Source: Haloterrigena sp. KLK7 (GTDB taxonomy: Archaea > Halobacteriota > Halobacteria > Halobacteriales > Natrialbaceae). From it: a DNA stretch of 64,000 bases. The notes beneath the pieces were generated by a model. That model did no database searches. It saw nothing but the letters and a program-made list of their open reading frames with translations, and was not told the origin of the DNA. The first letter of the stretch is position 1. The number at the start of each line of letters is the position of its first letter. Location of the stretch: contig NZ_CP149787.1 of assembly GCF_037914945.1 (NCBI RefSeq), positions 124,001 through 188,000 of the forward strand, read 5' to 3'. Of the stretch, positions 2,307 to 50,543 are shown piece by piece. Made by a program: the position numbers and the translations under genes.

Positions 2307-2419
2307 TACTCGAGCCCCGCGTCCGTGATCCGCAACCGTCCGCGCGTTCCGTCCCACTCCCGCTCGTACTCGAGGTCGATCCGTCGATCCATGTGCGGCC
2401 CGTCGACCACCAGCGTCTC
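2307..2419 (-). repeat. Second copy of the 3' coding end of the Dph6-like gene
   Basis: These 113 bp repeat 2592-2704 with only four mismatches. Read on the minus strand they encode the same final residues (ETLVVDGPHMDRRIDL and onward), ending at an in-frame TAG where the intact gene ends in TAA. No start codon or promoter makes this a credible separate gene; it is a duplicated gene tail. Confidence 0.9.
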
Positions 2420-2591
2420 AGAACCACCTTTTTTCCTCTCGGGTCGGCCTTCGGCCGACCGCTCGAGCAAAAAATCTGGACCAAAAAAGGCCGCTCGCTC
2501 ACTTCGTTCGCTCACGGGCGCTACGCGCTCGTTCACGTTCTCGCGGTTCTCGGCCGTCGGCCTCCGAACCGCGCATCGCTCCCGGTACAGT
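2420..2591 (-). mobile_element. Putative 3'-end-associated cassette (example 1), non-coding
   Basis: This 172-bp spacer separates the intact 3' end of the Dph6-like gene from its duplicate. In gene orientation it holds a GC-rich quasi-palindrome, a T-tract with GGTC (2488-2478), CAGA plus a second T-tract (2478-2469), a hairpin (2442-2449 paired with 2453-2460) and an A-tract followed by GGTGG (2434-2424). The same order of elements occurs after gatB at 49227-49382. It encodes no protein. Calling it mobile is inference from its recurrence and from the flanking duplication. Confidence 0.5.
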
Positions 2592-3316
2592 TACTCGAGT
2601 CGCGCGTCCGTGATCCGCAATCGCCCGCGCGTTCCGTCCCACTCCCGCTCGTACTCGAGGTCGATCCGTCGATCCATGTGCGGCCCGTCGACCACCAGCG
2701 TCTCGAACTCGCCGCCCTCGCCCAGAATGTGGACGCCGTACTCCTCGTTGAGTTCCTCGAGTTCTTCGATCGCCTCCCGATCCAGCGTCCGACCGAGCCA
2801 CGACTCGTCCAGTCCGTGCGCGGCGACCTGGATGATCGCGATCTCGAACCCGGCCTCGAGCATCGCGTCGGCCAGTTCCCGTGGGTCTTCCTGCCAGAGC
2901 GGAGCGAACAGCTCACACTCCAGTCGGTCGCACATCCCCTGAATGCGGCTCGTCTGGTACTCGCTCTCGACGGCGCCCGCGGTGACGCCGGCGAGTCCGC
3001 CCTCGAGGTCCGCGTCGAGATCGGTCAGGGCGGCCTCGAGCGGTTCGAGTTCGTCGTCGCCCTGTGCGCCGGAGTCGGCGGCGCTGGCGGCCTCGAAGTC
3101 GTCGGGCTCGACGTCGATCAGCGGGATCCCGATGCTCTCGGCCGCCAGCGCCGCCAGCTCCGTCGCGGGCACGTGGTACATGTACGAGTCGCCCGTCGGG
3201 TGAACCGTCACGAGGTGGGAGACGTCGTGTCCCGCCACGAGGGCCCGGTACAGCGCCCACGAGGAGTCCTTGCCGCCCGAGAAGAGGCTCGCCCACGTCC
3301 CGTCTGCGTCGCTCAT
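2591..3316 (-). CDS. Dph6/DUF71-type ATP pyrophosphatase (diphthine-ammonia ligase family)
   Basis: 241 residues of the adenine-nucleotide alpha-hydrolase (PP-loop) superfamily. The PP-loop SLFSGGKDSSWALYRAL is at residues 10-26. In eukaryotes the family member Dph6 carries out the last amidation of diphthamide on elongation factor 2; an equivalent role on archaeal EF-2 is plausible. The distal region has the family sequence HGLDESWLGRTLD followed by ETLVVDGPHMDRRI near the C-terminus. The last 37 codons are duplicated downstream (2307-2419), but this upstream copy keeps a complete reading frame with its own TAA. Confidence 0.82.
   Translation of the reverse strand: MSDADGTWASLFSGGKDSSWALYRALVAGHDVSHLVTVHPTGDSYMYHVPATELAALAAESIGIPLIDVEPDDFEAASAADSGAQGDDELEPLEAALTDLDADLEGGLAGVTAGAVESEYQTSRIQGMCDRLECELFAPLWQEDPRELADAMLEAGFEIAIIQVAAHGLDESWLGRTLDREAIEELEELNEEYGVHILGEGGEFETLVVDGPHMDRRIDLEYEREWDGTRGRLRITDARLE
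2592..2704 (-). repeat. 3' coding end of the Dph6-like gene, parental copy of the 113-bp duplication
   Basis: This is the in-gene copy of the direct repeat whose partner is 2307-2419. The two copies start 285 bp apart. Mismatches are clustered in the last 30 bp of the coding sequence. Confidence 0.9.
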
Positions 3317-47729: not shown

Positions 47730-49226
47730 ATGACTGCCCAGACCGTCCAGCAGGGCGACCTCGTGACCGTCATCGGCCTCGAGGTCCACGTCCAGCTGGA
47801 GACCGACACGAAGATCTTCTGTAGTTGCTCGACCGAACAGACCGACGAGCCCAACGAGAACGTCTGCCCGGTCTGTCTCGGCCTCCCCGGCGCATTGCCC
47901 GTTCTCAACGAGGCCGCCGTCGAGGCCGCCGTCAAGATCGGGAAGGCGATCGACGCCGACATCCCCGAGGAGACCCGGTTCCACCGGAAGAACTACTACT
48001 ACCCCGACCTGCCCAAGAACTTCCAGATCACCCAGTACGACGAGCCGATCTGCGCCGACGGCGAACTCGAGGTCGCCGTCGAGGGCGAGCGCCGGACGGT
48101 GGCGATCGAACGCGCCCACCTGGAGGAGGACCCGGGCAGTCTCCAGCACGTCGGCGGCGGTGGCGGCATCGACTCCGCGGAGTACACCCTCGTCGACTAC
48201 AACCGCGCGGGGACGCCGCTGATGGAGATCGTCACCGCGCCGGACTTCCGGAGCCCCGCTGAGGTGCGGGCCTTCCTCGCCGAACTCGAGGAGGTCCTCG
48301 AGTATCTGGGCGTCTTCGACGCGGAGCGCGACGGCAGCCTGCGGATCGACGCCAACCTCTCGATCATCCCCGAGTCGGAGATCGACGGCGACGACTCCGA
48401 CGAGATCGGCGCCGACGCGCTCGCGGCCGCGAACCGGACCGAGGTCAAGAACATCTCGAGTCACAAGGGCGCGGAGAAGGCCCTGGCCTACGAGGAGACC
48501 CGCCAGAAGAACGCCATCCAGCGCGGTCGCGCGGTCGAGCAGGAGACACGCCACTGGGACGAGTCCCGCGGGATCACGGTCTCGATGCGCTCGAAGGAAG
48601 AGGAGAAGGACTACCGCTACTTCGAGGAGGCCGACCTGCCGCCGCTACGCGTCTCGGGCTGGAAGGACGAGATCTCGATTCCGGAACTCCCCTCGGCCCG
48701 CCGCGAGCGGTTCCAGGCGGAGTACGGCCTGAGCGAGGAGGCCGCCTCGAAGCTCACCTCGACGAAACAGGTCGCGGACTTCTACGAGGACGTCGCCGGC
48801 GAGTTCGACCCCGACCTCGCGGCGACGTGGGTCGCGGACAACCTGCTGGGCGAACTCAACTACCGCGACATGGAGATCACCGATATTGCGGGTCGCCTCG
48901 AGGAGGTCTCCCGGCTCGTCGAACTCGTGGCTGAAGACGAGATCACGGCGAAGAACGCCCGCGAGACGGTGCTGCGATCGATGCTCGACGACGGGAAGGA
49001 GCCCGACGAAATCGTCGAGGACGAGGGCCTGGGCAAGACCGGCGAGGACGAGGTCCAGCAGGCCGTCGTCGAGGCCATCGACGAGAACCCCGACGCCGTC
49101 GACGACTACGAGAGCGGCGACGACGGGGCGATCAACTTCCTGGTCGGGCAGGTCATGCAAAAGACCGGCGGCAGCGCGGATCCGGGCGACGTGAATCAGT
49201 TGCTGCGGGGAGAGTTGGAAGGATAA
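47730..49226 (+). CDS. gatB: Asp/Glu-tRNA(Asn/Gln) amidotransferase subunit B
   Basis: 498 residues. As part of GatCAB it amidates Asp-tRNA(Asn), and Glu-tRNA(Gln) in some systems, using ATP. IGLEVHVQLETDTKIFC, the zinc site CSC followed by CPVCLGLPGALP, and HRKNYYYPDLPKNFQI are family hallmarks; a helical YqeY tail domain follows (about 340-490). The C-terminus reads DPGDVNQLLRGELEG. The last 20 codons are duplicated downstream (49383-49429), but this copy is complete. No gatA or gatC is in the window. Confidence 0.96.
   Translation: MTAQTVQQGDLVTVIGLEVHVQLETDTKIFCSCSTEQTDEPNENVCPVCLGLPGALPVLNEAAVEAAVKIGKAIDADIPEETRFHRKNYYYPDLPKNFQITQYDEPICADGELEVAVEGERRTVAIERAHLEEDPGSLQHVGGGGGIDSAEYTLVDYNRAGTPLMEIVTAPDFRSPAEVRAFLAELEEVLEYLGVFDAERDGSLRIDANLSIIPESEIDGDDSDEIGADALAAANRTEVKNISSHKGAEKALAYEETRQKNAIQRGRAVEQETRHWDESRGITVSMRSKEEEKDYRYFEEADLPPLRVSGWKDEISIPELPSARRERFQAEYGLSEEAASKLTSTKQVADFYEDVAGEFDPDLAATWVADNLLGELNYRDMEITDIAGRLEEVSRLVELVAEDEITAKNARETVLRSMLDDGKEPDEIVEDEGLGKTGEDEVQQAVVEAIDENPDAVDDYESGDDGAINFLVGQVMQKTGGSADPGDVNQLLRGELEG
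49163..49209 (+). repeat. 3' coding segment of gatB, parental copy of a 47-bp duplication
   Basis: Repeated at 49383-49429 with one mismatch. The repeat starts are 220 bp apart. The following six codons of gatB encode nearly the same residues as the downstream copy but with different codons. Confidence 0.9.
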
Positions 49227-49382
49227 CCACCGAACGCGAGCAAAGCGAGCGTTCGGCTTTTTGGTCTCTCACCGAACGGAGTGAGGTGATGGTCAGCGAG
49301 AGCGACGCTCTCGCCGGACAGATTTTTCTCGGAGCGGTTGCGAGCGGAGCGAGCAACCCGACGAGAAAAAGGTGGGAGAATT
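49227..49382 (+). mobile_element. Putative 3'-end-associated cassette (example 2), non-coding
   Basis: 156 bp between gatB and its duplicated tail. It holds hairpin A (49230-49237 with 49249-49256) plus a T-tract and GGTC, hairpin B (49296-49303 with 49307-49314), CAGA plus T-tract, a long palindrome TTTTTCTCG (49323-49331) / CGAGAAAAA (49362-49370) enclosing GGTTGC/GCAACC, then GGTGG. The order matches the cassette at 2420-2591. Mobility is inferred. Confidence 0.5.
49230..49262 (+). terminator. Hairpin plus T-tract after gatB
   Basis: An 8-bp stem (CCGAACGC/GCGTTCGG) is followed by five T residues at 49258-49262, 4 nt after the gatB stop. It would act as an intrinsic-type terminator and is part of the cassette. 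Confidence 0.6.
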
Positions 49383-49429
49383 GACCGGCGGCAGCGCGGA
49401 TTCGGGCGACGTGAATCAGTTGCTGCGGG
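49383..49429 (+). repeat. Duplicated 3' segment of gatB
   Basis: A copy of 49163-49209 with one mismatch. Reading on in the gatB frame gives AELEGE and then no stop for a long way, so the original gene end has decayed here. Confidence 0.9.
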
Positions 49430-49535
49430 CCGAACTCGAGGGCGAACTGCGTTCGCGCCGGCCGGAACCGCCGGCTTCCGACGCTCGTCTTCCGCTTTCC
49501 ATTGAATTAAGAGCGGCGGCGCGTGCAGTGGTGGC

Positions 49536-50543
49536 ATGGATCGAATACGGCTGGGTAACGAGGAGTTCGAGGGCCGAAACAACGCCTACGTTCTCGCCGC
49601 CGGCGAGACGCCGGGAGCGTCTCGTGGAGGCGGCGAAACCGCCGACAGCGACGACCTCGCGCTCGTCGATACCGGGATCGCGACGCCGGGCGTTCGCGAG
49701 GACTTGCGGGACGGACTGGCCGATCGCGGCCACGCGTTCGCGGATATCGACGACATCGTCCTGACGCACTTCCACGTCGATCACGCGGGACTGGCCGGCG
49801 AGATTCAGGCCGAGAGCGACGCCACGGTCTACGTCCACGAGGCCGACGCGCCGCTGGTCGACGGCGACGCCGACGCGGTGGCCGCCGTCGAGGACCGGCG
49901 CCGGGAACTGCTCGAGGAGTGGGGCCTCCCCGCGGACGCGCGGACCGAGTTACTGGAGTTCCTCGAGGCGGCGTCGACCATCGAGGGCGAGCCCGCCGAC
50001 GTCACGCCGATCGAGGACGGCGACGTGCTCGAGGTCGGGGGGTACCGCCTCGAGGCGGTCCACGCGCCGGGACACGCGGCGGGGCTCTGCTGTTTCGAAC
50101 TGGACGGCGGTCGGGAGGCCTTCGTCGGCGACGCCCTCCTGCCAGTGTACACGCCCAACGTCGGGGGCGCCGACGTCCGGGTCGACCGTCCGCTGAAGCG
50201 GTACCTGCACACCCTCGAGGACCTCGCCGACCGCGACTACGACCGCGTCTGGCCCGGTCACCGGGACCCGATCGAGGACCCGACCGCTCGCGCCCGCGAG
50301 ATCATCGATCACCACCGCGATCGAGCCGAGAACGTCGTCGCCGTGCTGGACGAATACGGCCCGGCCGACGCCTGGACGGTGAGCGAACACCTGTTCGGCG
50401 ACCTCGAGGGGATCCACATCCTCCACGGACCCGGCGAGGCCTTCGCCCACCTCGATCATCTCCGTCACGAAGGAGCGGTTACCGTCGAAGACGGAACGTA
50501 TCGATTGGTTACCGAGAGCGTGTCTCCGGAAGAGATCGTCTGA
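49536..50543 (+). CDS. Metallo-beta-lactamase fold hydrolase
   Basis: 335 residues. The metal motif THFHVDHAG supplies His78, His80, Asp82 and His83; APGHAAG and VGDALLP supply further ligands. A C-terminal helical domain (IIDHHRDRAENVVAVL followed by a winged-helix-like SEHLFGDLEG) is typical of the glyoxalase II/LACTB2-like group. Substrates of such enzymes include thioesters, lactones and nucleic acids. It converges with the lactonase-like gene. Confidence 0.87.
   Translation: MDRIRLGNEEFEGRNNAYVLAAGETPGASRGGGETADSDDLALVDTGIATPGVREDLRDGLADRGHAFADIDDIVLTHFHVDHAGLAGEIQAESDATVYVHEADAPLVDGDADAVAAVEDRRRELLEEWGLPADARTELLEFLEAASTIEGEPADVTPIEDGDVLEVGGYRLEAVHAPGHAAGLCCFELDGGREAFVGDALLPVYTPNVGGADVRVDRPLKRYLHTLEDLADRDYDRVWPGHRDPIEDPTARAREIIDHHRDRAENVVAVLDEYGPADAWTVSEHLFGDLEGIHILHGPGEAFAHLDHLRHEGAVTVEDGTYRLVTESVSPEEIV

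Follow-up and report, generated by a model that had tools for sequence, protein, structure and literature searches.

The question raised by the window, a 64-kb stretch of a haloarchaeal genome of 4.64 Mb, is whether the spacers behind two of its genes, gatB (locus A) and dph6 (locus B), belong to one family of elements, and how the tail of each gene came to be repeated beyond its spacer. The original prediction assigned the same ordered skeleton to both spacers, and by direct reading all of the claimed motifs are present, in the claimed order, at each locus. Those of locus A, on the plus strand, are TTTTTGGTC (49258-49266), CAGATTTTT (49319-49327), CTCGGAGCGGT, GGTTGC/GCAACC, ACCCGA, AAAAA (49366-49370), and GGTGG (49371-49375). 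Those of locus B, on the minus strand, are TTTTTTGGTCCAGATTTTTT (2469-2488), CTCGAGCGGT, GGTCGGCC/GGCCGACC, ACCCGAGAGG, and AAAAAAGGTGG, which ends at 2424. A gapped version of the skeleton matched exactly these two loci in the window and nothing in 100 dinucleotide shuffles, and the GGTC-CAGA-T5 block is rare and specific within the genus. The spacers were said to differ only in their hairpin cores. The cores do differ, but locus A also contains a two-hairpin insert of ~50 bp between GGTC and CAGA, and similar inserts occupy this interval in the relatives L013, L077, and L251. The claim that GGTGG immediately precedes the tail copy stands if the recurrent joint described below is recognized; a naive alignment starts the copy 4-7 nt later. 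The coordinates of all features are provided in Table 1. The two gatB tail copies are identical at 46 of 47 positions (49163-49209 versus 49383-49429) and those of dph6 at 109 of 113 (2592-2704 versus 2307-2419). Note that the gatB T2, without its stop codon, leaves an open frame (49372-49764) that extends into the next gene.

Table 1 Features of loci A and B in the window.
Feature	Locus	Position	Strand	Basis or remark
Host gene, gatB	A	47730..49226	+	NCBIfam NF004012, 634.7 bits, above cut-off
T1, functional tail of gatB (47 nt, best-preserved part of the duplication)	A	49163..49209	+	direct repeat D5
W hairpin, CCGAACGCGAGCAAAGCGAGCGTTCGG, immediately 3' of the stop codon	A	49227..49257	+	sequence
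First T-tract and GGTC, TTTTTGGTC	A	49258..49266	+	direct reading
Extra two-hairpin insert, GGTC to CAGA (locus A variant)	A	49267..49318	+	missing from locus B
E, CAGATTTTT - CTCGGAGC - GGTTGC hairpin - CCCGACGAG - AAAAAGGTGG	A	49319..49375	+	
E/T2 joint, gagaatt	A	49376..49382	+	joint table
T2, second gatB tail copy, stop codon lost	A	49383..49447	+	
Host gene, dph6 (diphthine--ammonia ligase)	B	2591..3316	-	NCBIfam TIGR03679, 270.5 bits, above cut-off
T1, functional dph6 tail, start 114 nt before stop-codon end	B	2592..2704	-	
W, 3' UTR hairpins, stop codon to T-tract	B	2489..2590	-	
TTTTTTGGT, directly before E	B	2480..2488	-	
E, CCAGATTTTTT - GCTCGAGC - GGTCGGCC hairpin - CCGAGAGG - AAAAAAGGTGG	B	2424..2479	-	
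E/T2 joint, TTC plus extra T	B	2420..2423	-	common to other genera
T2, second dph6 tail copy, runs on into native downstream DNA	B	2307..2419	-	

The layout in the tail-duplication class is X-T1-W-E-T2-Y, in which T1 keeps the 3' end of the gene complete and T2, behind E, runs into native downstream DNA. E extends from CCAGATTTTT to AAAAAGGTGG, with copies of 45-88 bp that are devoid of coding capacity. It is a near-palindromic hairpin whose ends are strictly kept, and its folding yields a mean z of -4.8 relative to shuffled cores. The proposal that the T-tract and A-tract ends could form a stem is borne out by the predicted folds, in which T5 pairs with A5 in 150 of 150 folded cores; in the examples inspected, CCA and TGG form the outermost pairing and enclose a GA/GG mismatch. 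The cores, as anticipated, appear to be compensatory. Indeed, 163 distinct sequences occur among 168 copies, and pairing is maintained upon folding. In the L177 variant, both sides of the perfect stem CCCACGGTTTT...AAAACCGTGGG have changed together. The second component, W, is a hairpin of the type CCGCGA...GAGCGG ending in TTTTTGGT. It precedes E at 36% of the tail-copy loci and at 42% of the others, as compared to 2% of random stretches, and follows T2 at 2.6%, which is background. Thus W-E is a module that the DNA behind T2 lacks: a small two-hairpin non-coding element of about 60-160 bp positioned directly behind stop codons of Halobacteria. Homologous W regions lie behind gatB in genome G005 and behind dph6 in G002, and in other genera (L014, L019) gatB is followed by the same type of E as in locus A. 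The 3' UTR hairpins of L008, L009, window positions 49227-49320, and most W regions have the form stem-GA-NN-GGA/GAA/AAA-NN-GA-stem. Such tandem G.A pairs with a triloop are like those of very stable DNA mini-hairpins and possibly represent a general haloarchaeal theme.

The distribution of the family was examined with a strict skeleton pattern composed of GGTCCAGATTTTT, a hairpin, and AAAAGGTGG, with the reversed pattern serving as the control. The strict pattern is present in 54 of the 145 genomes of an even sample of Halobacteria, representing 31 of 59 genera; the reversed control had no match in this sample, and the strict pattern had none in 164 genomes from other classes of the same phylum. 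Within the GTDB family, 13 of the 125 genomes together contain 15 matches to AGATTTTT...CTCG...AAAAGGTGG, as opposed to zero for its reversed form, and 14 of these matches are directly followed by a copy of the upstream gene's tail. Six congeneric genomes contain 16 occurrences of TTTTTGGTC-CAGATTTTT. Fifteen of them, distributed over nine different genes, are followed by a AAAAAGGTGG-type end with a tail copy. At least 120 matching stretches were found in a species-level genome collection; among the 80 matches listed, all belong to Halobacteria or relatives, bar one record labeled 'Euryarchaeota archaeon'. All of these counts are lower bounds because the patterns are exact. A genome scan had been named as the test that could refute the original prediction, and in it the skeleton is neither limited to two instances nor unrelated to gene ends and tail duplications. 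The suggested family of small protein-less elements accordingly takes shape, with well over 100 places, all confined to Halobacteria. Copies are few per genome, G061 having eight. Viral contigs contained no match to E, and phage records showed no similarity to locus B. Among plasmids, E-like sequence was observed in two haloarchaeal megaplasmids only (NZ_CP084091.1 and NZ_CP084883.1; L255, L256), where an intergenic sequence is similar to the element of locus A. An Rfam cmscan of eight loci gave sub-threshold chance matches and no family over its gathering score. No description of the element turned up in searches of open-access literature, one of them with the exact string GGTCCAGATTTTT. E may be a previously undescribed non-coding element of Halobacteria.

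Of the 150 E copies with enough flanking sequence to be testable, 78 have a 30-160 bp copy of the upstream gene's tail that begins no more than 16 nt from the final GGTGG, as against 43 of 3360 control positions (1.3%). For another 28 copies, a convergent gene has its stop codon 0-11 nt from the end of E (113 of 3360 controls have a stop within 12 nt), and the remaining 44 include antisense tRNA neighbors and divergent arrays. The expectation of gene 3' ends with duplicated tails is therefore realized with respect to gene ends and, for about half of the copies and about 30 genes, with respect to the duplicates; many copies have none. The T-tracts TTTTTGGT and CAGATTTTT are found downstream of stop codons, and in the 28 convergent cases the opposite-strand T-tract lies 0-11 nt from the convergent stop. 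The frequent abutment of E without a tail copy on such a stop codon suggests a bidirectional terminator. Judged from sequence and position, E most likely functions as a bidirectional transcription terminator that was adopted or inserted at gene ends. It might be argued that the copies are nothing other than ordinary conserved terminators and the tail copies coincidental neighbors, given that E between convergent genes or beside antisense tRNA genes resembles a bidirectional terminator. The abundance of tail copies relative to the controls, a uniform joint, and a T start that is fixed for each gene make this extremely improbable, and for the tail-copy class it is refuted by the tail-copy excess and the joint. 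A third element of the window's own genome (L008; G000:C1:1322478-1322522) is a T6-hairpin-A6 located between convergent genes, with neither GGTCCAG, GGTGG, nor a tail copy.

The tail-copy class comprises about 30 different genes, mostly housekeeping. NCBIfam supports dph6, gatB, sufS, hisH, hisF, purH, elp3, argF, and dapD as hosts, together with pheT, polC (the large subunit of DNA polymerase II), and the genes for HMG-CoA synthase and ornithine cyclodeaminase; some of these score below the cut-off because partial proteins were scanned. An MBL-fold enzyme, etfA, ileS, and the part of malic enzyme that corresponds to phosphotransacetylase gave weaker matches. The tail copies are 20-160 bp long, and T2 repeats the final 20-114 nt of the open reading frame. 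The right joint has the form GGTGG + NNN + Y + tail in about 30 unrelated genes, where NNN in most genes equals the three gene bases preceding the tail start and Y stands for an additional base or two, predominantly C or T. The first bases of the tail are usually purines, frequently GAGAC or GAGAT, and its start is fixed per gene across genera (dph6 -114, hisF -40, the MBL-fold gene -54, ileS -45). The uniform joint and the recurrence of the same start point to one or few origins per gene and to one recurrent molecular event across genes. This uniformity is also the strongest hint of a specific enzyme. The possibility that GGTGG serves as a ribosome-binding site for T2 was rejected, as no consistent start codon follows and the joint shifts the frame of T2. 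When NNN and the E core were compared by eye for guide-like complementarity, nothing consistent emerged. At L044, L103, and L017/L181, N gaps or nested duplications lie exactly within the tail copies, which suggests misassembly; that several loci carry N gaps precisely at the repeats warns that assemblers can break there.

The purine-rich T starts in the ~30 genes are similar to the AGATC motif of Haloferax volcanii, which is reported to lie downstream of coding-region RNA 3' ends (PMC7237163). This resemblance, a seamless left side, and the one or two extra pyrimidines at the right joint would fit an RNA-mediated insertion, whereby E RNA and the host mRNA end are reverse-transcribed after priming at a break inside the gene. 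RVT_1 reverse transcriptases, however, were found in just 4 of the 145 Halobacteria genomes and not in that of the window, and E is carried by 54. An RVT_1 enzyme is thus an unlikely agent of reverse transcription, E was rejected as an RVT_1-driven retroelement, and RNA-mediated insertion as a whole is given very little credence.

Differences between T1 and T2 are distributed over codon positions 1, 2, and 3 as 47:19:158. When polarized with a relative, the T2-derived changes are 20:8:69, or 71% at third positions, and the T1-derived changes 18:7:51. Identity between T1 and T2 drops at the stop codon from 0.77 to 0.50. Both tail copies evolved under coding constraint. Neutral decay of T2 is ruled out by the codon positions, given that a neutral copy would show about equal thirds. 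Within one genome the T1-T2 distance is 5.9%, and that from T1 to its nearest relative is 13.1%; the divergence of T1, examined for signs of its import from diverged strains, shows no clear excess over that of empty genes. The closeness of T1 and T2, together with the third-position bias, suggests that T2 has repeatedly been exchanged with functional tails, either through gene conversion in these polyploid cells or through recombination involving other strains.

These data also bear on a classical transposition of E, in which an unusually long target-site duplication is followed by neutral decay of T2. The T-E-T layout, the boundary of E exactly at the hairpin base CCA/TGG, and a patchy occupancy are all as would be expected. 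The usual target duplications of prokaryotic transposons are far shorter than 20-160 bp, and the observed T lengths lie beyond them. Moreover, the T2-derived changes are not neutral, the T homology stops at the stop codon rather than randomly, and the same T start recurs across genera for a given gene. Such a transposition is improbable, and with neutral T2 decay it is largely refuted.

Occupied and empty loci were compared with one genome per species. Across the family, 8 of the 30 genomes sampled have a dph6 tail copy that passes the threshold; several more have only E or half-E remnants, and the rest are empty. At the same threshold in the same sample, the window genome is the only one with a gatB tail copy. 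The gene behind dph6 (window ORF 719-2248) lies in the same place in four of six congeners (G000, G002, G003, and G004). E follows dph6 in G000, G001, G002, G004, and G005, and in G003 a T2 stub remains without E. In G005 (L159), E is followed by unrelated coding-like sequence instead of T2, consistent with a deletion that joined E to the end of another gene. There are also T-E-T-E-T arrays with nearly identical units, and the arrays examined end in T rather than E.

The main rival to an insertion of W-E, and one that we consider unlikely, is a local tandem duplication: E already served as a terminator, T-W-E was duplicated through slippage at the palindrome or through circle formation and reintegration, and the distal W-E decayed to leave T2. 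Arrays of near-identical T-E units (L064, L077, L109, L110, G230) speak for such a duplication, as do E copies that lack tail copies. In L013, L066, and L104, W or half an E follows T2, which counts against the insertion reading in that it also fits tandem duplication with subsequent decay. On the other side, the arrays finish in a bare T, and W behind T2 does not rise above background. Even copies that are identical at 54/54 and 56/56 positions stop 2-9 nt past the stop codon with no distal E.

We assign about an even chance to the reading that W-E is a small 3'-end element, non-autonomous, whose insertion behind stop codons duplicates the tail of the gene. According to this proposal, W-E would enter the 3' end of a gene by a tail-duplicating process, and the host gene would never be broken because its tail is duplicated on insertion. 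The E/T2 joint would be made once or a few times per gene and then inherited, with existing joints spreading via homologous recombination. The copies would be kept alike, and units amplified or removed, as T1 and T2 recombine with each other or with other alleles, which would give rise to the arrays and remnants. As for a mover, IS200/IS605 (Y1) transposases show no association with E (37 of 54 E-positive genomes versus 100 of 145 overall), and G061, with its eight copies, has none. RVT_1 and Y1 enzymes were rejected in this role since their presence does not track E. Tentatively, and with the balance tilted against it, a dedicated, undescribed recombination system could join the foot of the terminator hairpin to a chosen site of the same gene (NNN^GAGAY, with one or two pyrimidines added), thereby making self-restoring gene-end cassettes that spread by homologous recombination at conserved housekeeping genes. 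If so, E would be a mobile element reduced to a minimum, with the tail of its host gene as the homology arm.

If the insertion reading is true, Halobacteria possess, across the class, a non-coding element by which the ends of essential genes are duplicated harmlessly. The ends of gatB, dph6, sufS, hisF, hisH, purH, ileS, pheT, polC, and elp3 would offer a genetic system in which to study how archaea terminate transcription, how insertions arise at gene ends, and how gene conversion operates in polyploid archaea.

Among known systems, the intrinsic terminators of Haloferax volcanii have a T-tract and sometimes an upstream hairpin (PMC7237163). E shares with archaeal intrinsic terminators the T-tract behind a stop codon, the hairpin, the gene-end position, and the TC after the T-tract. 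What sets it apart is a single long palindrome bracketed by T-tracts on both strands, flanks that are strictly conserved (GGTCCAGA, GGTGG), a low copy number per genome, and the tail copies. Like E, MITEs and the Haloquadratum SMRs and PATEs are short, non-coding, inverted-repeat or palindromic, and presumed to be mobilized in trans (PMC3119063). Their target duplications are absent or short, in contrast to the host-gene tail copies and diverse cores of E, and the SMRs and PATEs were described without such tail duplications (PMC3119063). E was rejected as a DNA-transposon MITE in view of its long flanking copies at fixed gene positions and its core diversity. REP/RAYT sequences and the subterminal hairpins of IS200/IS605 are likewise intergenic imperfect palindromes with conserved hairpin feet. 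They lack a tail duplication, however, and on this ground, along with the untracked Y1 transposase, a REP or IS200/IS605 derivative was rejected. Tyrosine-integrase elements at gene 3' ends (att sites) also leave the host 3' end intact with a second tail downstream. E, by contrast, is part of a module of about 60-160 bp without an integrase, with ~30 unrelated target genes and one shared hairpin; an integrative element of that kind was rejected, as the copies of E are short and contain no integrase gene. The attC arrays of integrons resemble E in their structured hairpin, variable core, and kept ends, and tandem T-E units are reminiscent of cassettes. E has no RYYYAAC/GTTRRRY boxes, and its units carry gene tails only; an integron cassette was rejected because the conserved ends are CCAGATTTTT and AAAAAGGTGG rather than attC boxes. 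In outline E resembles a MITE or an attC-type hairpin, and it fails the tested defining features of those families.
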